Shown: one piece after another, positions 7,680-28,342 of the stretch
Layout: the number at the start of each line of letters is the position of its first letter
How positions within the stretch are numbered: position 1 is the stretch's first letter
Assembly (NCBI GenBank): GCA_016283195.1
Contig: JAEEML010000162.1
Location: forward strand, 1 to 34,865
Direction: 5' to 3'
Source of the DNA: Deltaproteobacteria bacterium
GTDB lineage: Bacteria > JAEEML01
DNA length: 34,865 nt
Position numbers and translations under genes: made by a program
Notes under the pieces: model-generated
Databases searched by the model: none
The model's input: the letters and a program-made list of their open reading frames with translations, nothing else
Told to the model about the DNA's origin: nothing

Positions 7680-8238
7680 ATGAAAGATATCTATAAGATT
7701 CTCGCCTTTGTTGTTGGCACTTTTATAAGCTGCTCTGATCCGCAACCTAGTAACAACGGACGGCAAATTCTGGCTGGGGGCCAATATGGCTTATGACACC
7801 GGCACACATTATAATCCCGGTAGCGGAACCAGCGAAAGTGCCAATACCGACAATGTTGCCACTTATGGCTTCCTATATGATTGGGATACCGCCGCAAATA
7901 AGGTATGCCCCGCTGATGACGGCTGGCGTTTACCAACAAAAGATGAACTAACTGCTTTAATAAGCTTAGGCGCCGAGAATCTGCGAGCAACCGGTTTTGC
8001 CAGCGGAACTGATACTTACGGCTTTGGAGCTCTTCCCGCCGGCTACTACGAATATGGTGATTACACCTATTTTGAAGAGGACGCCGCCTTCTGGTCGTCA
8101 GATACAGATAATACCAGCGATTTCTCTAATCCTAAAGCATATTACATGACTTTAGGAAAAAAGAATAACTATGCAAACATACACTCTGACTCTGTAACGC
8201 TCGGCATCTCGGTACGTTGCCTCAAGGCCAAAGACTAA
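7680..8238 (+). pseudogene. Frameshifted FISUMP-domain lipoprotein
   Basis: An ATG at 7680 with GGAG five bases upstream starts a lipoprotein signal (KILAFVVGTFISC), but this frame stops after about 39 residues. The following frame (+1) is open from 7729 to TAA at 8236-8238 and encodes one FISUMP domain (Fibrobacter succinogenes major paralogous domain). Its landmarks are DGKFWLGANMAY, YGFLYDWDTA, VCPADDGWRLPTKDEL, ENLRATGF, GFGALPAGYY, AFWSSDTD and a final SVRCLKAKD. The two halves belong together, so a one-base shift lies between about 7731 and 7782. An ATG at 7786 exists, but it falls inside the domain and lacks a ribosome site. This may be a genuine pseudogene or a sequencing error. A related three-domain protein is encoded at 21782-23527. 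Confidence 0.75.
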
Positions 8239-9044: not shown

Positions 9045-11258
9045 TTAGAAATCTTCTTCGGCACCTTTACGGAAGACATTGAAATCGGCTTTAATACCGC
9101 GATGTTCCAAATCTTCATAGAATTTCGGCACAAAGCCTGTCGGCACATGGCGCCCAACCACTTTGCCCTTTTCGTTGTAGCCGTCTTGTTTAAAGACGAA
9201 AATATCCTGCATGGTGATAACATCACCTTCCATGCCGGTAACCTCTGTAATGTGAGTAATACGGCGCGAACCATCAGGGAAACGGCTCTGTTGCACAATA
9301 AGGTCAACAGCACCGGCAATTTGATCGCGAATAGCCTTAATGGGGAGTTCCATACCACTCATAAGCACCATGGTTTCAAGACGCGATAAGCAATCGCGCG
9401 GAGTATTGGCGTGCAAAGTGGTAAGTGAGCCATCGTGACCGGTATTCATGGCCTGAAGCATATCGAGAGTTTCTCCGCCACGACATTCACCAACAACAAT
9501 GCGGTCAGGACGCATACGGAGACAGTTTTTCACCAAATCGCGAATAGTCACTGCGCCCTTGCCTTCAATATTGGGCGGGCGGCTTTCCAGGCTGACAACG
9601 TGCGGCTGCGCCAAACGAAGTTCGGCGGCATCTTCAACGGTAACAATACGCTCAGTCTCGGGAATAAAAGAAGAGAGGACATTGAGCGTCGTAGTTTTAC
9701 CGGAACCAGTACCACCGCTAATAACAATATTTTTGCGAGCTACAACAGCAATTTCAATAAAGTTGGCCATTTCCGGGGTCAAAGAGCCAAAACCGACCAA
9801 ATCTTTAACTTGCAAGGGGTCATGCTTAAATTTACGAATGGTCAGACAAGGTCCTTTAAGAGCCAGCGGCGGAATAATGGCATTAACACGGGAACCATCT
9901 TTAAGACGGGCATCAACCATCGGGGAACTTTCATCAATACGCCGGCCCAAAGGAGCTACGATACGCTCAATAACACCCATAACAGCTTCGGCAGAAGAAA
10001 AAGTACAGCTGGAAAGTTGCAATTTACCCTTCTTTTCAATGTAAATCTGATCGGGCCTGTTAACCATAATTTCGCTGATATCATCATCGGCAATAAGCGC
10101 TTCGAGCGGCCCCAGGCCCAAGGATTCATTGATAACATCATTTATCAATTGATCCACATCTAGGCCTTCCGGGAGCTCGCCGTTCATATCCATCTGATCA
10201 ACTATTTCTTCAATAGCATCACGAGAACGCGCTTTAAGTTCTTCTTCACCCATGGATTGTACATCCACGCGGCGCAAATCAAGAGCCTGCACCAAGCGCT
10301 CTTGCACAACAGCCAGCGCTTTAGCGTAATCATCAATATTTTCCGGTGCTTGAGCTGCTACCGGTGCCGGACGCGGTGCCGGTGCCGGACGCGGTGCCGG
10401 TGCCGGAGCAGGAGCCGGGCGGGCTGCCGGAGGTTGCGGTCTGGACACTGGCGGCGGTGTCACTTCTTCTTCTTCAAAATCATCTTCAAATTCTTCTTCA
10501 AACGGCTCCTCTTCGAAATCATCGGCCGGTGGCGGCGGCGGAACAGGAGCAGCAACAGGAGCAGGTGCATGAGGTGCGCCTTTGCCGGGAAGTGGTGCTC
10601 CACCAACAGGCGGCGGCGTCACTTCATCAAATTCATCATCATCGTCATCATCAATAGGCGGCGGCGGTGGCAAAGGACGGCGCACAGCCCCCGGGCTGGC
10701 CACAGGTTCAGCCGCACTAATAATATTGTTGAGCTCTTCTTGGCTTACACGTGGTCGCCCGCCTGCCCCTTTTGGGGCTTCGCTTACCGGCTGACCGGCA
10801 CTGTTAATGAGATCATCGAGATTAAAATCATCATCCTGCCCACCGGCAGCCGGTGCTTCCTCTTCTTCTTCCCATTCATCGCCCCAGTCATCAGAGCCGA
10901 GATTCATCTCTTCAACATCCCACTGAGCACTACCGTTTTCTTCGCCAACATCAACCGGTGAAGGCTGTTCCTGGCCCTCTATTTCAATTATGAAATTACC
11001 GCATTGAATTTTGTCGTTTAAACCGACTTGCATGCTGCCAGTAACTTTGTGGCCATTTAAAAAAGTACCGTTGGTGGAATTCATATCATTGATAAGATAA
11101 TCATTGCCGCGCTTAATAATTTGCGCATGGTGCTTGGATATATTATTCTTGGGCAGAATAATATCATTGCCTTGCACCCGGCCGATAGTTACCTGATCTT
11201 GGTCAAACTCCTGAACAACTGTCTCGCCGCCTTTTTCAGTAATTTTCAGAGTAATCAT
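9045..11258 (-). CDS. cpaF: FHA-domain CpaF/TadA-type secretion ATPase
   Basis: This 737-residue fusion has three parts. Residues 1-95 form an FHA phosphothreonine-binding domain with GR at 26-27, SKHH at 41-44 and STNGTFLNG at 61-69. About 95-310 is a disordered linker rich in Pro, Asp, Glu and Ala with two acidic blocks. About 310-737 is the CpaF/TadA ATPase that powers Tad pilus assembly. It has Walker A GGTGSGKTT near 514, the VEDAAELRL and LRMRPDRIVVGE segments, and TLHANTPRDCLSRLE. All ATPase motifs look intact. The FHA domain suggests control by a Ser/Thr kinase not encoded here. The gene lies 51 bases after the secretin gene. TadB/C, a pilin and a prepilin peptidase are absent from the window. 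The ATG is preceded by GGAG. Confidence 0.93.
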   Translation of the reverse strand: MITLKITEKGGETVVQEFDQDQVTIGRVQGNDIILPKNNISKHHAQIIKRGNDYLINDMNSTNGTFLNGHKVTGSMQVGLNDKIQCGNFIIEIEGQEQPSPVDVGEENGSAQWDVEEMNLGSDDWGDEWEEEEEAPAAGGQDDDFNLDDLINSAGQPVSEAPKGAGGRPRVSQEELNNIISAAEPVASPGAVRRPLPPPPPIDDDDDDEFDEVTPPPVGGAPLPGKGAPHAPAPVAAPVPPPPPADDFEEEPFEEEFEDDFEEEEVTPPPVSRPQPPAARPAPAPAPAPRPAPAPRPAPVAAQAPENIDDYAKALAVVQERLVQALDLRRVDVQSMGEEELKARSRDAIEEIVDQMDMNGELPEGLDVDQLINDVINESLGLGPLEALIADDDISEIMVNRPDQIYIEKKGKLQLSSCTFSSAEAVMGVIERIVAPLGRRIDESSPMVDARLKDGSRVNAIIPPLALKGPCLTIRKFKHDPLQVKDLVGFGSLTPEMANFIEIAVVARKNIVISGGTGSGKTTTLNVLSSFIPETERIVTVEDAAELRLAQPHVVSLESRPPNIEGKGAVTIRDLVKNCLRMRPDRIVVGECRGGETLDMLQAMNTGHDGSLTTLHANTPRDCLSRLETMVLMSGMELPIKAIRDQIAGAVDLIVQQSRFPDGSRRITHITEVTGMEGDVITMQDIFVFKQDGYNEKGKVVGRHVPTGFVPKFYEDLEHRGIKADFNVFRKGAEEDF

Positions 11259-11309
11259 AAAATATCTCCAGTTTAAATATATCTGATATTGCTAATAAAA
11301 TTTTATTTT

Positions 11310-12773
11310 TCAGTCAAAGATACTGAACTTAACTTCCGATTCGCCCATTTGATACCTTTTGGTAATACCAGTAATAGTTTTCTTTACCAAATCACTGGTA
11401 GGATCGATGAGGCGCGGAGTAACAAAAATAACCAAATCAGTTTTCTCTTCGCGGAAATTACGTGATTTAAAAAGCTCGCCCAAAATCGGAATATGGCCAA
11501 GGAGGCCGAGCTTGGCAACATCTTTGCCCTCTTTGCGCTGTACCAGGCCGCCCAGGACAATTGTCTCACCATCGCGCACGGTAACTGTGGTTTTAACACG
11601 GCGGGTAGAAAAACCGGGCACATCCATTACTGAAACAGATTGATCAACCGCACTAACTTCAGCCAAAATATCTGCCTGAATAGAATTTACATCCACATAA
11701 GGTGTGAGATTAAGTCTAACGCCGTATTCTTTAAACTCAATATTTACGCCATCAGCCGTTTTAATAACTATCGGCACTTCGCCTCCGACCAGAAATTCAG
11801 CTTTTTGCCCGGAAGCGGCAACCAAAGTCGGGCGAGCTAAAACACGAGTAGCACCATCATTAAAAGCCAGCGAGAGACCAAAAGAAAGATCGGACATACT
11901 ACCGCTATGAGTAAGACTATTTGGTGCTGTATTGGCATGTCCCACACCGGCCACCAAATTTGTTGTGGCTGACCAACCAACACTAACGGAGCCCACATAA
12001 TTCTGCGGCCAGGTAAAGCCGTAATTGCTGGTGCTATTTAAGGCCAATTCCACAAATTCTACTTCGGCCTGCACCATTTTTGAGGGGCCGATGCGCAGGA
12101 CACTCTGAACATTGCTGGAAATACTCTTAACCAAAATTTCCGCTTTTTTCATATCGCCTTCGCTGTTGACCGAGCCTTCCAAAAACACAGTTGAGCCAAC
12201 AACGGTAGCTTTGGCGTTATCCACACCGGCAGAGGAGAGCACTTTATTGATTTGCTGGGCAATAAGCGCATGAGCAGAAGGATCAAGTTTAACCAGGCTA
12301 CGCACTATCGGGCTATACAAGTTGGCCACTTCTTCAGCCCGCTCAATATCTTCAAGAGTGAGTGCTTTGCCATCAATATAAATGCGCTGGCCGCTGGTGC
12401 GCACATTAATGCCTTCGCGTTTGCCCAAAAGGCGGCTAACCTCGCGAGCCAGTTTAGGGATATCTACATCGGAAACATTAACAGAATATTTGGTTGTTTT
12501 GGTGCCGCGCCAAATGGTGAGTTCGGTAACACCGTTACTCACAGCAGTAATGATAATTTCACCGTTTTTGGTGGTTTTAACATTAATAACCGAGGAATTA
12601 CCAACAGAAACCCTTGTAACACCGCTCAAATTGAGCACCCGTTGCTGGCCGACAACCATGCTGATTGTCTCTTCGACATCGGCGCTTTGAGCCCAGGCAC
12701 TATGGCCGCTTATAGTAAATAACAAAGCCACTAACACAGCCATTTTTTTGGAAAAACTCAATTTTGTAAACAT
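11310..12773 (-). CDS. cpaC: CpaC/RcpA-type outer-membrane secretin
   Basis: This protein forms the outer-membrane channel of Tad-type pilus systems. It has 487 residues. The signal peptide has a cleavage site after SAWA (about residue 28). An N-terminal domain of the CpaC type follows (VGQQRVLNLSGVTRVSVGNS). A BON-like segment covers about 110-215, and the type II/III secretin domain about 220-470. Secretin landmarks include ARPTLVAASGQKAEFLVGGE, GLVQRKEGKDVAKLGLLG, HIPILGELFKS and TDLVIFVTPRLI. The start has GAGAGGAG upstream. A minus-strand TTGACA lies at 12848-12853 in the 98-base gap after the DUF2135 gene, but no good -10 follows. It could therefore share the upstream operon or have its own weak promoter. 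Confidence 0.93.
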   Translation of the reverse strand: MFTKLSFSKKMAVLVALLFTISGHSAWAQSADVEETISMVVGQQRVLNLSGVTRVSVGNSSVINVKTTKNGEIIITAVSNGVTELTIWRGTKTTKYSVNVSDVDIPKLAREVSRLLGKREGINVRTSGQRIYIDGKALTLEDIERAEEVANLYSPIVRSLVKLDPSAHALIAQQINKVLSSAGVDNAKATVVGSTVFLEGSVNSEGDMKKAEILVKSISSNVQSVLRIGPSKMVQAEVEFVELALNSTSNYGFTWPQNYVGSVSVGWSATTNLVAGVGHANTAPNSLTHSGSMSDLSFGLSLAFNDGATRVLARPTLVAASGQKAEFLVGGEVPIVIKTADGVNIEFKEYGVRLNLTPYVDVNSIQADILAEVSAVDQSVSVMDVPGFSTRRVKTTVTVRDGETIVLGGLVQRKEGKDVAKLGLLGHIPILGELFKSRNFREEKTDLVIFVTPRLIDPTSDLVKKTITGITKRYQMGESEVKFSIFD

Positions 12774-20997: not shown

Positions 20998-21798
20998 TTG
21001 AAAAGCGCAGAAGAAAAAGCTCTCGAACTCTTGCGGCGCAAGCTCTTGCGTGCCATGGGGGAGGCCATCCACAATTACGATCTCATCCACGAAGGCGAGC
21101 GCATTATGGTGGCCGTCTCGGCCGGTAAAGACAGTCTCACCCTACTCCACCTTTTAGACTGGCTGCAAAAGCGCTCGCCGGTCCACTTTGAGCTTATTGC
21201 CGCCCACATCGACCCCGGCTATGGCACCGGGCCCAAAATGGAGCACTATTTTAAGGAACTGGGTGTAAATCATGCCGTGATAGAGCGCCCCTTTATCCGC
21301 ATGGTGGAGAAAAAAGAGGCCGACCCCACGCGCCGCTGCAATCTCTGCGCTCGCTTTCGCCGCGCCGCTCTTTACGACCTCGCTACCCGTGAGGGCTGCT
21401 CTACCATTGCGCTCGGCCACCATGCCGATGATCTTATCGAAACTCTCTTAATGAGCATCCTCTTTTCCGGCCAGATAAAATCCATGCCGGCGCGGCTTAT
21501 TTCCGATAGCGGCGAGCACATAGTCATTCGCCCTTTGTGCCTGGCTTGGGAAAAGGATATTATTCAATATGCCAAGCTTTGCGCTCTGCCGGTGGTGGAA
21601 AATATTGTCTGCAATCAGCAGCTCGATACACGCCGCCGCTGGACCAAGGAATTTTTGGCTAATATGCAAGCCGAATCACACCACATCAAGGGCAATGTGC
21701 TGCACTCGCTACAAAGGGTAGTAAAAAGTCATCTTTTGGCTTTTAATAAAGTGGAAGAAGAAAATGACGCCACAAGCCTGCTCACGGAGAGTCTTTAA
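20998..21798 (+). CDS. ttcA: tRNA 2-thiocytidine(32) synthetase TtcA family
   Basis: TtcA thiolates cytidine 32 of certain tRNAs using ATP and a [4Fe-4S] cluster. The start is TTG with TAGGAG upstream. The 266-residue protein is a little shorter than E. coli TtcA (311). The PP-loop reads SAGKDS at 41-46, a variant of SGGKDS. The first cluster motif CNLC is at 114-117, followed by ARFRR, and HHADD is at 141-145. A third cysteine stands near 205 in VENIVCNQQLD, where E. coli TtcA has its third cluster ligand. The family is clear, but other TtcA/TtuA-like tRNA thiolases are possible. The last 17 bases overlap the end of the convergent FISUMP gene. The tRNA-Lys gene in the window is not a known TtcA substrate. 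Confidence 0.85.
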   Translation: MKSAEEKALELLRRKLLRAMGEAIHNYDLIHEGERIMVAVSAGKDSLTLLHLLDWLQKRSPVHFELIAAHIDPGYGTGPKMEHYFKELGVNHAVIERPFIRMVEKKEADPTRRCNLCARFRRAALYDLATREGCSTIALGHHADDLIETLLMSILFSGQIKSMPARLISDSGEHIVIRPLCLAWEKDIIQYAKLCALPVVENIVCNQQLDTRRRWTKEFLANMQAESHHIKGNVLHSLQRVVKSHLLAFNKVEEENDATSLLTESL

Positions 21799-23527
21799 GG
21801 CAGCGCACCGAAAAGGCGCCGGTTTTAGCACCGCTTCCCAAATAAACACTGCGTTTTTCTATACTTAGGCCATAGGCATTGGAGCTGTCTTCCTCTGTAC
21901 TTGACCAGAAGCCGGCATCTTCGCCAAAATTGTAATAATCACCGGCCAGATAGAGGCCGGCCGGAAGCGCCCCAAAGCCTGTCATCTCCTTACCGCTCTG
22001 GTCATCGGCATAGCTCCAGATAGTGGCTCTTAAATTCTCGGCGCCGGTTTTATTATCGCCGCCAACATAGTCTATCAGGTCTTCAAAATCTTCTTCACTC
22101 GGTAAATGCCAGCCGACGGGGCAAGCCTGTTTGGCCTCTTGCCACTCATAAAGGAAACCATACACAGCATCGTTTTTACTGTCGCCATCCACCGAATAAT
22201 GTTTTACCCCGCTATAGCGCAGATTTTCCGCCATCCAGGTTTGCTCTTCAATTTGCATTATTTTGTATTTATGGCCATCGCGCGAATCGGTAAAAAATCC
22301 CTCTGCCGCCTTTGGTTCACTTGCTACCTGGGAAGCAGCATTATTGTTTTTAGACTGAACAGGATCTTTGGCGGCCGTACTTTGGAGAGCAGCGTTACTA
22401 AGTGGCGATTTTTCCGGCTCCTCATTATTTGTGTCTTTTATGCAGCGCACCGATAAATAGCTGGCACTTTTACCGCTATTGACTATTGTTTTGCCGGCAT
22501 CCACATAGAGGCCATAGGCATTCTTTTTATTTTGTTCCGTGCTGGACCAAAAATAAGCTGCTACCTCGGCCGATGAACAGCCTTTCTTCTCACATTTGCC
22601 CGCCGGTAGCGCCCCAAAACCGGATACATTTTTTCCTTTATCCCATTTTCTGTGTCTTAAATTGTCAGAACCTGTTTCCTCTTTGCCAACACTGGTTAAA
22701 AGGCGGTCAAATTCTACTCTTGAGGGCAGATGCCAGCCACTAGGGCAGACTTTTTTAGCATCGTCAAATTTATACAAATAGCCGTATTCATTTGGCTTTT
22801 TCGTTGATTTGTAATCTATTCCGTCAGCAATATACTTCATATTTTCGGCCAGCCAAATTTGATTGCCGATTTCTACTGTCTTATATTTATTGCCATCGCG
22901 GCGGTCAGTAAAAATATTCAGTTTACCACTTTCTTCGGCGTCTTTAATACAACGCACCGAAAGAAAATCTGTGCCCTCACTGTTGCAGCTTTTGGCCGAA
23001 ACGCTACCTTGCGCTATGGTCATGGAGTAGGCGTCATTATTTCCCTCTTTGCTGCACTTGCTAACCGTCCAAAAGTAGGCTGCTGAGCCAAAAGAAGCAA
23101 AGTTATCAGCTTTAAAAGCGCCGGCCGGCAGAGCCGAAAAACCGGAGCCGTTTTTGCCGCCTTTCCAGCTACTGGCCCGGAGATTTTCGGAGCCTTCCTG
23201 CCCTTCGCCGACATGGACTAGAAGACGGCTAAATTCCACTTTCGAGGGCAAATGAAAGCCAGCGGGGCACACTTTTTGGGCATCGGCCCAGCTATATAGG
23301 CAGCCATAATTCTTTACGGAAGCGCCATGTTTGGCGTCCGAGCGGCAAGCTATATCATCGGCAATGTACTTTACATTTTCGGCAAACCAAATCTGGTTAC
23401 CTATTTGCACGGTTTTGTAGGTCGTGCCGTCGCGACTATCAGTAAATGAGCCGTATTCCTGGGCCAAGGCCGGCGATGCCGTTAGCAGTAAAAGAAAGAC
23501 AGCTGATTTTAACCACAAATGATACAT
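21782..23527 (-). CDS. Secreted protein with three FISUMP domains
   Basis: The ATG at 23527 is chosen because AAGGAGGG stands a few bases upstream. The reading frame extends to 23602 but without such a site. The 581-residue product has a signal peptide ending near ASPALAQ (about residue 22). Three FISUMP domains follow. Each starts with DSRDG or DRRDG, then Y-K and a Q-x-W-x-AEN segment. Each has VCP-x-GWHLPS (ACPVGWHLPS in the third), GFGALPAG and an SVRC end. The first two end in SVRCIKD and the third in SVRCLKD. The linker after domain two is rich in Ser, Ala, Asn and Lys. Function of FISUMP is unknown. It is abundant in Fibrobacter surface proteins. The gene ends inside the last 17 bases of ttcA on the other strand. 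Confidence 0.85.
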   Translation of the reverse strand: MYHLWLKSAVFLLLLTASPALAQEYGSFTDSRDGTTYKTVQIGNQIWFAENVKYIADDIACRSDAKHGASVKNYGCLYSWADAQKVCPAGFHLPSKVEFSRLLVHVGEGQEGSENLRASSWKGGKNGSGFSALPAGAFKADNFASFGSAAYFWTVSKCSKEGNNDAYSMTIAQGSVSAKSCNSEGTDFLSVRCIKDAEESGKLNIFTDRRDGNKYKTVEIGNQIWLAENMKYIADGIDYKSTKKPNEYGYLYKFDDAKKVCPSGWHLPSRVEFDRLLTSVGKEETGSDNLRHRKWDKGKNVSGFGALPAGKCEKKGCSSAEVAAYFWSSTEQNKKNAYGLYVDAGKTIVNSGKSASYLSVRCIKDTNNEEPEKSPLSNAALQSTAAKDPVQSKNNNAASQVASEPKAAEGFFTDSRDGHKYKIMQIEEQTWMAENLRYSGVKHYSVDGDSKNDAVYGFLYEWQEAKQACPVGWHLPSEEDFEDLIDYVGGDNKTGAENLRATIWSYADDQSGKEMTGFGALPAGLYLAGDYYNFGEDAGFWSSTEEDSSNAYGLSIEKRSVYLGSGAKTGAFSVRCLKDSP

Positions 23528-23564
23528 ATAACCCTCCTTACAGAATATAAATAAACGCAGCAGC

Positions 23565-23603
23565 GATGCGATTAAACAGTGTAAAGATGCGCTGAATCGC
23601 ATC
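23565..23603. repeat. GATGCG repeat cluster in the leader of the three-FISUMP gene
   Basis: GATGCGATT (23565-23573) is a perfect inverted match to AATCGCATC (23595-23603). A second GATGCG at 23586-23591 also pairs with the same CGCATC (23598-23603). The two stems exclude each other because they share one arm. They sit 38-76 bases upstream of the chosen start on the minus strand. This could be an operator or a switching RNA leader. No T run follows. Confidence 0.4.
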
Positions 23604-23659: not shown

Positions 23660-24500
23660 CTAGGGCAGACACTTTATCTCCTGATCTAAAGCGGGCGTAA
23701 GGTCGTAACCAAGTTTTTCCGAGAGCTTATTGGCATCTTTCTTAATACGCTCTGCCAACTTATCCAAGCTCTCTGCCCCATCTTTGGCGGCAATAACAAT
23801 CACATTGGTGCTCTCTTTTGCATGAAAGCAGCGAGCCTCACTAAAAGCTACCAAAAGTTCGCGCCTTAGCTCGCGATCTTCCTCCGCCGAGTTGCCGGCA
23901 ATATTAGCCACTAAAAGGCCGCCCGCCGCCAGGTCATTTTTCACCAGAGCAAAAAAGTCCGCTCCTCTTAGAGCCGCCGGAATACCTTCGGCATCGTAGG
24001 CATCAATGGCAATCAGCTTATAGCGCCCGCTATTTTCCGGCCGCTCTATGGTACGGCGGCCGTCCTCTTCCAGGGCAATTAGGCGGCTATCACGCGGCAA
24101 AAAAAAAGTATTTATAAGCCAGCGTAATTACCTGGCCATCTATATCCACGGCAAAAATTTGCGCTTTGGGAAAAGTGCGCCACAAAAGGCGCGGATAGGC
24201 CCCGCCGCCCAGGCCGATAACTAAAAAGCTGCTCCCGTCTTCGGGCTCTAAAAGCGGCAACGCCAGCCCCATCAGGCGGATATATTCCATGGGCACAGCG
24301 TCGGGATTTTTGGGGTCTATCATGCTCTGGTCATCGCCATTTAAGGTGCCAAAGCGCAAATAGCGATAGCCGCCGTCATCGATAACAAAGATTCGCTCGT
24401 TATATTTTGAGGGCACATCAGCCAGTATTTTGGTCTTTTGCGAGCAGGAAGTTCCGGCAAGACATAGCAAAAGTGCTAATAAAATGCGAAATAACGACAT
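23660..24500 (-). pseudogene. Spermidine-synthase-like lipoprotein, frameshifted at a homopolymer
   Basis: The upstream part (from ATG 24500, or 24530 if the longer start is used) has a lipoprotein-like signal (SLFRILLALLLCLAGTSC). It continues as a methyltransferase/spermidine-synthase-like fold with YRYLRFGT, the glycine-rich VIGLGGGAYPRLLWR and the acidic FAVDID. The frame ends soon after LAYKYFFFAA. The downstream frame (from about 24100) continues YFFLPRDSRLIALEEDGR naturally. It keeps the family's DAYDAEGIPAAL segment, where the related enzymes have D-x-F/Y. The junction is a run of nine T on the coding strand (24099-24107), and eight T would restore one frame of 279 residues. The polyamine-pocket residues are not obviously complete, and the lipoprotein signal is unusual for this fold. 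It may be a true pseudogene, a sequencing error or slippage. Confidence 0.75.
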
Positions 24501-24546
24501 GTTACTTTCTCTATTCTCAAAAATTACCATGCGGCCGTTTTTTCAC

Positions 24547-25266: not shown

Positions 25267-26535
25267 TCACTTAATAATAATGCGTTGATGTTTTTTCTTG
25301 CCGGCCCGTAAAATAATCTCACCGCCTAAAATATCGGCGGAAAGCGGCGCTAGGCCGTCTTCAATGCGCTCTTCGTTGATATAAGCACCGCCGCCCTGAA
25401 TGAGGCGCCGGGCCGCACCCTTGGATTCACAGAGGCCGGCCAGCACAAAGAGATCAACAGCGTTTAACTCGGCAGCAAGATCCGCTTTACTTAGCTCGGT
25501 AGTGGGAATTTGCGCCTGCCCGGCACTGGCATCGCGCGGGATATTCGAGCTCGGCAAAATATCGGCCGGAATACTCCGCGCGCCAAAGGCCTGCCAAGTG
25601 GCAAAGAGAGCCTCTTTGGCCTTTTCGTAGCCGTGAATAAAGGCGGTGGCTTCATAAGCCAAAATGGTTTTCACCGGGTTCAGCTGCTCGGCGGTGAGCT
25701 TTTCGCAAGCTTCAATTTCCTCAATGGGTAAATAGGTAAAGAGCTTGGTATAACGCAGCACATCGCGATCATCGGAATTTACCCAGTATTGGAAATAATC
25801 ATAAGGCGAGGTGCGGTTTTCATCCAGCCAGAGCGCCCCGGCCACCGTCTTGCCCATTTTTTGCCCGGTGGCGGTGGTGATGAGCTTAAAGGTCATGCCG
25901 TAGCCCTGCTTATCTTCCAGGCGGTGAATGAGGTCGATACCGGCCACAATGTTGCCCCATTGGTCGGCGCCGCCCATTTGCAACTGACAATTGTGATTTT
26001 TAAAGAGATACCAAAAATCATAAGCCTGCAAAAGCTGGTAATTAAACTCGATAAAGGAGAGCCCGCGCTCGAGGCGCATTTTGTAAGACTCGGCGGTGAG
26101 CATGCGGTTGACACTGAAATGGCGACCGATATCGCGCAAAAAGTCGATATATTTTAGGCCGTTGAGCCAGTCGCCGTTGGCCAGGATTTTTACTTCACCT
26201 TTGCCATCTAAAAGGCGGTGCAACTGCTTGCCGATGCCGTCTATATTTTTTTGCAAGCTTTCATCATCGAGCATTTTCCGCATCTCGGTTTTGCCGGAAG
26301 GGTCGCCAACCCGAGCGGTAGCCGAACCAATAAGAGCCACCGGGGCAAAACCGGCCTTCATAAAGTGGCCAAGAGCCATAATGGGAATAAGATGCCCGGC
26401 GTGCAAACTGTCGGCAGTTGGGTCAAAGCCGACATAAAGTGAGGTCTTACCAGCTGCTAAAAGCTCTTTAATGGCCTCTTCATCGGTAACGGCGTCTATA
26501 AAACCACGGCGGGTAAGTTCGTCAAACAGCATCAT
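25267..26535 (-). CDS. tyrS: Tyrosyl-tRNA synthetase
   Basis: The 422-residue protein is a class I synthetase that charges tRNA-Tyr. The HIGH-type signature reads HAGH at residues 45-48, after YVGFDPTADSL. The KMSKS-type loop reads KMGKT near residue 230, within TGQKMGKTVAGALWLDE, as in many bacterial TyrRS. AGIDLIHRL and YQLLQAYDF segments are conserved. The C-terminal S4-like RNA-binding domain contains AARRLIQGGGAYINEERI and KKKHQRIII. Two adjacent ATG codons mark the start at 26535. The gene has its own promoter (26604-26631) and an odd triple TTAGG repeat in the leader. Confidence 0.97.
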   Translation of the reverse strand: MMLFDELTRRGFIDAVTDEEAIKELLAAGKTSLYVGFDPTADSLHAGHLIPIMALGHFMKAGFAPVALIGSATARVGDPSGKTEMRKMLDDESLQKNIDGIGKQLHRLLDGKGEVKILANGDWLNGLKYIDFLRDIGRHFSVNRMLTAESYKMRLERGLSFIEFNYQLLQAYDFWYLFKNHNCQLQMGGADQWGNIVAGIDLIHRLEDKQGYGMTFKLITTATGQKMGKTVAGALWLDENRTSPYDYFQYWVNSDDRDVLRYTKLFTYLPIEEIEACEKLTAEQLNPVKTILAYEATAFIHGYEKAKEALFATWQAFGARSIPADILPSSNIPRDASAGQAQIPTTELSKADLAAELNAVDLFVLAGLCESKGAARRLIQGGGAYINEERIEDGLAPLSADILGGEIILRAGKKKHQRIIIK

Positions 26536-26677: not shown

Positions 26678-27430
26678 ATGAAACTAACCTGCTTACATTG
26701 CGGAAAACAATTGGAACTGGCCACCGGCACGGCTAATGGCGCGGTTGTGTGCGATTGTACGCGAAATATTACTATTCCCAACCTAAAGAAAACCGCTATA
26801 CGCCCAAATGCCAGAGCGGCTGAAAGGGCTCTGCGGCGCGCATTTTTATCGGCCGGCATGATTAATAATCGCTGGCAAATTGCCTTATTCCTGGCTGTTG
26901 CCACTATTTTTGTGCCTCCGCTAGCAATTGCTTCTATTGCCGTTGCAATTGCCGTATTACGCGATAAAGCCGGTTCCTTGGCCCGCTATGCCGGCCATCG
27001 CCAGGCTTTAATAGCCATTTTTCTGGCAATTTTTAATGCCATTCTTTCTTTATCCGGCGCTTATTATTTTTATAATGATCAGGTAATGAAAAATCGCCAG
27101 TATGTGCAAAAATCAGCCGCTCGCGATTTGCGAGCCCTGGCAGCAAGTGAAAATTCTTTTTATAGCAGCCACGGCCATTTTGGCACTTTTGATGAGATTT
27201 CCTTTATGGCCCCGGAGGGTCTTTATACTCTCTGCCTGGCCGATGAAATAAAAAAACCGCGCTCTGCTCTTCTAAAAACTGTTAATAACTGCCCGGATGA
27301 AAGTCTCCTTGAAGATGATCACTTCACAGCCGTGGCTGTAGCCAATCTCGATGGCGATGACACACTGGATATTTGGGCTGTAAACGAAGACGGCGTGGTA
27401 ACCAACCTGCAAAACGATCTGGAAGATTAG
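26678..27430 (+). CDS. Zinc-ribbon, two-helix membrane protein with a type IV pilin-like head
   Basis: The 250-residue protein starts with a short zinc ribbon (C5, C8, C25, C27). Two membrane helices follow (about residues 66-88 and 107-130). The last 110 residues read as a soluble type IV pilin-like domain. They contain ARDLRALAASENSFYSSHG, an FDEISFMAPEGLYTL segment and FTAVAVANLDGDDTLDIWAV. That last part resembles the A-x-G-N-x-D-x-D-x-x-x-D-x-W element of deltaproteobacterial type IV pilins. It lacks the pilin leader, so it is not a normal pilin subunit. The domain probably faces the periplasm. Function is unknown. The stop codon is three bases from the end of the convergent M23 gene. 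The ATG follows an in-frame stop at 26672-26674, which fixes the start. Confidence 0.7.
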   Translation: MKLTCLHCGKQLELATGTANGAVVCDCTRNITIPNLKKTAIRPNARAAERALRRAFLSAGMINNRWQIALFLAVATIFVPPLAIASIAVAIAVLRDKAGSLARYAGHRQALIAIFLAIFNAILSLSGAYYFYNDQVMKNRQYVQKSAARDLRALAASENSFYSSHGHFGTFDEISFMAPEGLYTLCLADEIKKPRSALLKTVNNCPDESLLEDDHFTAVAVANLDGDDTLDIWAVNEDGVVTNLQNDLED

Positions 27431-27433
27431 CTT

Positions 27434-28342
27434 TTATTTCAGCAATATTGGTATTTCCATAATATCAAGTGGGTCAATAGCTTTGCCGTTATAATGCACT
27501 TCAAAATGCAGGTGTGGACCGGTTGAACGCCCGGTTGAACCAATAAGGCCAACGGTGCTCCCCTCCTCCAGCTGTTCACCGGAATTAACAAAAATAGCCG
27601 ATAAATGGGAATATACCGTTGTATAACCGCCAATGTGCTCTATGGCCACCGACTGTCCATGTCCGCGAAACCAGCCGGCTCGCACAACCTTACCGGGGGC
27701 AGCGGCACAAACAATTCGCCCACTGGGCGCGGCCAAATCCATACCACGATGAAAAGTTATACGCCCGGTAAAAGGATCTTCACGATAGCCAAAAAAAGAA
27801 CTGATACGCCAAACGGCCACAGGCCATTCCAAAAAAAGCTGCTTTTCTTTTGCCACAGGCAGAGCAAGCTTTTTTAACTTATCGTGTATATTATTTAAGA
27901 TAAGTCGCTCTGTATGCAAAACCTTGAGTTCCGGCAAACCATATTCACTGATAACATACTGAAATTCCGCCTCAATAGTAAGCCGCAGGCGATGTAATGT
28001 TGCCACACTTAGGGGTAATGAGCTTTTTAGTGTTTTATCGACATAATTAAGGAAGCTTAACCAGTAATTATCCATATACCGCGCAGCTGTCGGTTCTTTC
28101 GCCAAACGCCTGACAGCTTTTTGAAAACGCTGTAATTCATCAAGAAAAACGTTTTCGCTCTCTGCGCCCCAGCTAGGCACTGAAGGCAAGCGGCTAATAG
28201 CAACTTCGCTGGCGCCATCTAAAGCAGCTACCTCTAAAGAAGGCAATGGCGAGAGGGAAAGTTCAAGGCGCCCCGCATGATAACGATTGGCTGCACATGA
28301 TGGTAAAATAAGGAGCAGAAAAAGGAGTAAGAAACGCGGCAT
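27434..28342 (-). CDS. M23 (LytM-type) peptidase lipoprotein
   Basis: The 302-residue protein has a leucine-rich signal and the lipobox LPSC at residues 13-16, predicting an envelope lipoprotein. The C-terminal M23 domain is complete. HRGMD supplies the first His and Asp, YSHL the middle His, and GPHLHFEVHYNG the final HxH zinc ligands. Such domains cut peptidoglycan peptide bridges or act as regulators when degenerate; this one looks catalytically intact. About 150 residues between signal and domain are helical and hydrophilic and may place the domain. The start lies nine bases after the stop of the outer-membrane beta-barrel gene, with no visible ribosome site. Translation is therefore probably coupled to that gene. 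Confidence 0.9.
   Translation of the reverse strand: MPRFLLLFLLLILPSCAANRYHAGRLELSLSPLPSLEVAALDGASEVAISRLPSVPSWGAESENVFLDELQRFQKAVRRLAKEPTAARYMDNYWLSFLNYVDKTLKSSLPLSVATLHRLRLTIEAEFQYVISEYGLPELKVLHTERLILNNIHDKLKKLALPVAKEKQLFLEWPVAVWRISSFFGYREDPFTGRITFHRGMDLAAPSGRIVCAAAPGKVVRAGWFRGHGQSVAIEHIGGYTTVYSHLSAIFVNSGEQLEEGSTVGLIGSTGRSTGPHLHFEVHYNGKAIDPLDIMEIPILLK

Follow-up and report, generated by a model that had tools for sequence, protein, structure and literature searches.

A pilin-like head without a prepilin leader on a predicted zinc-ribbon membrane protein of a deltaproteobacterium

What is a pilin head doing on a protein that begins with a zinc ribbon and lacks a prepilin leader? The question is raised by a gene in a 34,865-nucleotide stretch of DNA from Deltaproteobacteria bacterium (contig JAEEML010000162.1 of assembly GCA_016283195.1); we call the whole stretch the window and the product of this gene the window protein. 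A preliminary description of the sequence had likened its C-terminal domain to deltaproteobacterial type IV pilin heads and had proposed a cytoplasmic zinc ribbon and two helices in place of the leader. Pfam and NCBIfam searches with the window protein gave no match above cut-off, the only pilin hint being a sub-threshold Myxococcus PilA model (E 1.5 for the whole protein, 0.54 for the head). PHROGs and plasmid records held no match to the protein, and a PDB sequence search with it alone found nothing. DUF4190 (PF13828) was unlisted for the window protein at a maximum E of 10, a setting at which HMMER's filters remove the majority of matches weaker than about 0.1, and was not seen at E 0.01 in the one orthologue scanned. 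The structure of the window protein, as set out below, is well supported, and its function is what we infer.

A full-protein profile searched at E 1e-20 over 195 genomes of one phylum matched seven of them, six of which hold an orthologue, complete in G572, G573, G574, G577 and G579 and cut by the contig end in G578; the match in G548 and a second match in G579 look, by eye, like the DUF4190 type. We name the phylum Myxococcota-like because of the source records of three orthologues: MGST01000296 (Deltaproteobacteria bacterium RIFOXYA12_FULL_58_15), JACRCV010000087 (Deltaproteobacteria bacterium isolate NC_groundwater_1655) and JALHOP010000001 (Myxococcota bacterium isolate bin.157). The nearest relatives of the window genome itself, among the 98 and 386 genomes compared, are only at the level of the same domain. 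A close-relative search with the single protein returned 139 pattern stretches, none confirmed; a single-protein search of 98 genomes matched four, its own included, the other three being head-only matches; and a locus search with the family alignment gave three orthologues and one head-only protein. Over its full length the window protein is 31–39% identical to the five complete members, with the four ribbon cysteines kept (alignment A3). In all 15 pairs, conservation is higher over the first 105 alignment columns than over the remainder (for example 44 versus 35%, and 72 versus 50%), which would fit a conserved cytoplasmic partner.

The resemblance of the head to pilins is real and goes beyond chance. 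Pilin-head proteins were collected across public genomes, and 94 reading frames that carry a prepilin leader, none of them from the window family, went into a profile. This profile matched residues 136–250 of the window protein at E 1.2e-10 (Z = 100,000) and the five complete orthologues at E 1e-9 to 4e-15 (database of 100,000), and a profile restricted to the globular part matched residues 165–250 at E 8.8e-9. Four hundred shuffled sequences gave best E values of 32 and 23 with the two profiles, which rules out a chance resemblance. The N-terminal half (residues 1–135) was unlisted at E 1000 with the pilin profiles. In the reverse direction, a profile from the six family heads recovered 64 of the 94 pilins at E 0.001 (78 when the threshold is relaxed to E 1), together with the major pilin of the window genome (G000:C189) at E 3.4e-5, a protein that a single-sequence search with the window protein reaches at E 0.08 only. 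The head signature listed in Table 1 is present in all six family members, 51 of 94 leader-bearing pilins and 29 of the 34 other leaderless heads described below. Matches of a further profile, A2, to the genome's own PilA and to 8tj2 were discarded as independent support: A2 contains true pilins, this PilA among them, and the strong score of the latter is by construction.

AlphaFold2 models were built from window-family sequences alone. Structure prediction and fold search of the head, the check suggested in the preliminary description and run here on residues 103–250, gave a pilin fold and not an unrelated one. In the head model (mean pLDDT 81.4) a helix spans model residues 3–63, the membrane helix and the pilin spine forming one 61-residue helix. 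When Foldseek's 1000 best chains were re-aligned, the best 11 structures were all pilins or pseudopilins, headed by Myxococcus xanthus PilA (Z 10.4, rmsd 3.0, 139 residues, 23% identity), which Foldseek itself also placed first (E 6e-3, probability 1.00). The whole-protein model (mean pLDDT 70.6) has a single helix at residues 107–165 followed by strands, and a weak ribbon with short strands at 2–4, 11–13, 22–24 and 30–32 of low confidence. Here too M. xanthus PilA ranks first (Z 10.0 over 117 residues); between the pilins stand unrelated helical proteins with Z up to 7.6 that match the anchor helices, and these were not used. Foldseek with the whole-protein model gave no match at E 0.001 and ranked unrelated proteasome chains highest, which we attribute to the weakly modelled N-terminal half. 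Structure Z values of 8–10 are moderate, and the sequence evidence for pilin homology is independent of the fold. The proposed pilin-like head is thus borne out by leader-bearing pilin profiles, the reverse profile, the shuffled controls and the fold.

The other end of the molecule departs from a pilin. With the prepilin model PF07963, eight sites are detected across the window genome, none of them at the gene of the window protein. In the structure alignments that reach it, residue 1 of mature pilins falls at residues 107–112 of the window protein (M. xanthus PilA residue 1 aligns with residue 108, residue 6 of the head model), so Gly106 sits approximately at the place of the prepilin Gly(−1). 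Taking Gly106 as −1, residue +1 in the six members is H/R/F/R/R/R, non-hydrophobic in five and Phe in L130, and residue +5 is L/I/L/I/M/V. Glu5, which is required for pilus assembly, is present in none of the six. The kink at pilin Pro22 is also gone in all six members, so the family spine may no longer fit a filament or an assembly platform. As judged from these residues, the lack of a leader and of Glu5 argues against assembly of the window protein into a filament.

The four-cysteine ribbon is present as described, Cys5, Cys8, Cys25 and Cys27 being invariant in the six aligned members, and we take it to bind zinc. Behind it lies a linker with five to seven Lys/Arg against one or two Asp/Glu in each member, taken as cytoplasmic. 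Kyte–Doolittle windows find two hydrophobic segments, the first of which is 31 residues long with an invariant central proline, positive flanks and, in all six members, a complete lack of acidic residues. AlphaFold2 breaks this stretch at residues 76–80 into helices 65–75 and 81–96. It is probably a hairpin that starts and finishes on the cytoplasmic side, giving a predicted total of three membrane segments, and the third membrane helix, from residue 107, is predicted to lead outward into the pilin spine and head. Two crossings only would place ribbon and head on the same side of the membrane; with the hairpin there are three, and the ribbon would be inside and the head outside. Charge pattern and model agree with this predicted topology of three membrane helices, N terminus in and C-terminal domain periplasmic. 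Of the suggestion that two helices replace the leader, the absence of the leader stands (PF07963, Glu5); the two helices are probably a short hairpin plus the spine helix at 107–165.

Table 1. Features of the window protein gene (positions in the window)
Feature	Position	Strand	Basis
Coding sequence, complete, 250 aa, stop included	26678..27430	+	Aligned start M/V-R/K-L-T-C in six family members
Ribbon, residues 1-34, CxxC...CxC (Cys5, Cys8, Cys25, Cys27)	26678..26779	+	Cys invariant 6/6
Positively charged linker, residues 40-64	26795..26869	+	Charge count; helix 45-63 predicted
Probable membrane hairpin, residues 65-95, invariant Pro81	26870..26962	+	Acidic residues 0 in 6/6; positive flanks; model helices
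Positive loop, residues 96-108, invariant Gly106	26963..27001	+	2-4 Lys/Arg versus 0-1 Asp/Glu
Predicted third membrane helix running into pilin alpha1 spine, residues 107-165	26996..27172	+	One helix in models
Pilin globular head, residues 166-250	27173..27427	+	Profiles, model, structure comparison
Pilin head signature N-x-D-x-D-x-x-x-D-x-W, residues 223-233	27344..27376	+	Motif count

The window gene is flanked by a divergent gene at 25267–26535, presumably a tyrosyl-tRNA synthetase-like gene, and by a convergent M23 peptidase gene (Pfam) at 27434–28342. In all six orthologues outside the window genome, a gene with a DnaJ domain and HTH_25 (a RodZ-type HTH) lies directly upstream, preceded in five of the six by a MinD-like ATPase gene (in G572, at the end of another contig). 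The gap between the DnaJ/HTH_25 gene and the family gene is 0–6 bases in four of the five junctions read and about 195 in L158. Where the contig continues downstream (G572, G573, G574 and G577), genes for an 88-residue protein and an RluA-type synthase follow, with about 0.6 kb between in G574; the one member of the 88-residue protein that was scanned had no Pfam or NCBIfam match. A conserved cluster of HNH nuclease, MinD-like ATPase, DnaJ/HTH_25, 88-residue protein and RluA synthase is found at L158, L160, L170, L172 and L252 and in other genomes. Because the same cluster occurs without the family gene in other genomes of the phylum (L234, L235, L244, L246 and L250), an older operon must either have gained this gene or have lost it. 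In the window genome a MinD-like gene lies on contig C41 with no DnaJ/HTH_25 neighbour, and a DnaJ/HTH_25 profile run over that genome yielded no match at E 1e-8.

Seven cluster profiles and inspection of frame starts revealed no pilus gene next to the window gene or its orthologues. Pilus parts with which the protein could interact are found elsewhere in the carrier genomes. The window genome encodes a leader-bearing PilA on C189, whose head is recognised by the family profile, and leader-bearing minor-pilin-like genes with a PilY1-type protein on C104; what we take, by its appearance, to be a type II secretion cluster is on C103. Leader-bearing pilins with the same head occur in all six orthologue genomes (G572, G573, G574, G577, G578 and G579), and head matches at E 1e-8 are common across the phylum, with 134 of 195 genomes positive.

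Three further features of the window and its genome are recorded here. An FHA-T2SSE (CpaF-like) ATPase adjoins a pilus-type secretin with a BON domain at 9045–12773; it is perhaps a Tad-like fragment, and no pilin was recognised near it. Proteins at 7786–8238 and 21782–23602 of the window and at G000:C41:1–705, the last adjoining the MinD-like gene, carry what we assume to be FISUMP-like domains. At 23660–24530, two overlapping minus-strand frames look, by eye, like one spermidine-synthase-like gene split over frames.

We asked how widely pilin heads occur without a leader. Among 136 head-bearing frames in the retrieved loci, 42 have no leader at the right distance: two artefacts, L020 and L065, due to a broken frame and to a start at a contig edge, the six of the window family and 34 others from 24 genomes. 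The resulting 40 of 134 is not a frequency, since loci were picked partly for long frames; the leaderless frames are counted from the upstream stop and not from a start codon. The other leaderless heads have varied anchors, often joined near pilin residue 14 (as in L100, L024, L148, L088, L097, L102, L125, L143 and L153). L100 combines zinc ribbon, DUF4190 and pilin in a single chain, all three above their Pfam cut-offs, whereas L024 and L148 pass the cut-offs for ribbon and DUF4190 only, Pilin_PilA scoring below its own. These three share with the window protein the order of ribbon, hydrophobic region and pilin helix with head, and likewise have no leader; they differ in keeping the pilin from about residue 14, Pro22 included, whereas the window family has lost Pro22 and has no Pfam match above cut-off. 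Elsewhere the head is joined to two GYF_2 domains (L072), to lipoprotein-like proteins with a lipobox recognised by eye (L090, L091 and L118), or sits in the middle of a 668-residue protein with two C-terminal hydrophobic segments (L025, G099:C1). In L138 (G522:C315, 247–1365, minus strand) it accompanies an SLFN_AlbA_2 domain with no predicted membrane segment, and there the head is perhaps cytoplasmic. A proline near position 22 is kept in 27 of the 34 other leaderless heads versus 89 of 94 leader pilins, and the Gly14–Pro22 spacing in 21 of 34 versus 90 of 94.

A head tree was reconstructed from 117 sequences (79 leader, 6 window family and 32 other leaderless), heads with a summed domain score below 45 being omitted. 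The window family forms one group (100/99), and no supported group joins it with the heads of L100, L024 and L148. The leaderless label changes 9–10 times on the tree, and at least five changes are forced by well-supported branches; a single ancient leaderless family is rejected to that extent. Together with the varied anchors, these changes indicate that head and leader have been uncoupled repeatedly. The order of events is unsure because the tree is built on 132 columns, leaves 34 of 112 inner branches open and has an unsettled bootstrap. Some leaderless heads group with the pilin of their own genome, as in G032 (99/84), G099/G098 (100/99) and one G040 protein (99/72); others do not, namely L018 and L025 of G099, the L005 pair of G040 and the Myxococcota-like ones, the window family included.

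Based on these observations, the reading that we prefer, and to which we give about an even chance, is that the window protein is a membrane-captive pilin, its leader swapped for a cytoplasmic zinc ribbon and a hairpin, that serves the pilus as a non-polymerising adaptor or sensor in the inner membrane. It would be a pilin paralogue that retained the pilin helix and head. Prepilin peptidase would leave it uncut and it would not enter the filament; because a zinc-binding anchor replaces the cleavable leader, it probably stays in the membrane, outside the pilus. From there its pilin surface could make contact with major or minor pilins or with the assembly platform, in an adaptor or sensor role of the kind proposed for the three-helix TfpY in Pseudomonas, and ribbon and linker might relay a signal to cytoplasmic partners. 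The better conservation of the N-terminal part, together with the operon, suggests that such a partner exists; that it is the MinD/DnaJ pair is a guess. The earlier proposal of a fixed mimic or a pilus-assembly contact is our best guess at function. Counting against the captive pilin are the lack of a recognised adjacent pilus gene, the position of the window gene outside the MinD operon, the loss of Pro22 in the family, the Phe at +1 in L130, the weak ribbon of the whole-protein model, the head being the less conserved part, and its failure to group with the pilin of its own genome.

Several of these points serve the main alternative, which we regard as possible and on balance improbable: the head is a mere periplasmic binding domain and the window protein an envelope sensor or scaffold with no pilus role. 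No pilus gene is recognised next to the gene; Pro22 is lost in the family, whose heads stand apart from the pilins of their own genomes; and the lipoprotein-like, GYF_2, SLFN_AlbA_2 and 668-residue proteins show that the head is widely used. Leader-bearing pilins with the same head nevertheless accompany the family in seven of seven genomes, although head matches are common in the phylum, and the leaderless heads of G032, G099/G098 and G040 that group with their own pilin suggest matching to the pilin there.

The gene order raises a different idea, that the protein links pilus proteins outside to a MinD-like/RodZ-type positioning system inside and helps to place or time pili. The family gene sits directly behind DnaJ/HTH_25 in six of six cases, mostly with tight junctions and with the MinD-like gene ahead in five, and conservation is strongest in the presumed cytoplasmic and hairpin part. 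The clusters that lack the family gene, however, allow a plain insertion into an older operon, and the window genome has a MinD-like gene but no DnaJ/HTH_25 match; we consider a positioning role unlikely. Very unlikely, in our view, is a protein with two crossings whose ribbon and head are both cytoplasmic and whose head binds a cytoplasmic target. The plain hydropathy count and the L138 protein are consistent with it, but the length of the first stretch, its invariant proline, its positive flanks and its two modelled helices speak against it.

A wider extension of the captive-pilin reading, which we rate as unlikely, would make the captured pilin the outer half of a membrane-spanning receptor, through which the state of the pilus (pilin pool, assembly, position) is coupled to the MinD-like ATPase and the DnaJ/RodZ-type adaptor inside the cell. 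Captive pilins would then have arisen independently several times in Myxococcota-like bacteria and their neighbours, the window family among them, each having exchanged its assembly-competent N terminus for a signalling module of the cytoplasm or membrane, often near pilin residue 14. To our knowledge, how the level of pilin is sensed, and how the place and time at which a pilus starts are chosen, are largely open questions. The window family is a concrete candidate for such functions, with its pilin surface, probable inability to polymerise, conserved ribbon half and MinD-like operon. That pilins have repeatedly lost the leader and kept everything else suggests that their heads work outside filaments more often than annotations reveal. 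In the open-access literature we found no paper on captive or leaderless pilins, on pilin–DUF4190 or pilin–zinc-ribbon fusions, or on MinD/RodZ–pilus links.

Among known systems, M. xanthus PilA shares its head and full spine helix with the window protein; a pilin of this type has a leader and a single membrane helix and polymerises, whereas the window protein places a ribbon and hairpin first and has neither Glu5 nor Pro22. In Geobacter, PilA-C is a pilin head encoded apart from the leader-bearing helix and pairs with the short pilin PilA-N; it is not known to have a ribbon or hairpin. CpaL of Caulobacter resembles the window protein in joining a pilin fold to an extra domain and in its proposed sensing role, and differs in its vWA domain, its predicted place at the pilus tip and its Tad pilus (PMC12607857). 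The closest likeness in layout is with TfpY/FimB-like proteins, described in the accessible sections of their source as having a short cytoplasmic N terminus, three membrane helices and a periplasmic C-terminal domain, as we predict for the window protein (PMC11841053). In Pseudomonas, two-hybrid tests gave signals of TfpY with both PilA and minor pilins, and TfpY was undetected in pili; a priming role was proposed, exerted on pilins in the inner membrane without entry into the pilus, the authors urging caution over the weak two-hybrid signals (PMC11841053). Those sections describe no pilin fold or zinc ribbon, report that HHpred gave no known domain, and place the homologues in Pseudomonadota, in pilin-accessory gene cassettes (PMC11841053). 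At most, then, the window protein may work like TfpY, to which we liken it by description and not as a member of its family.
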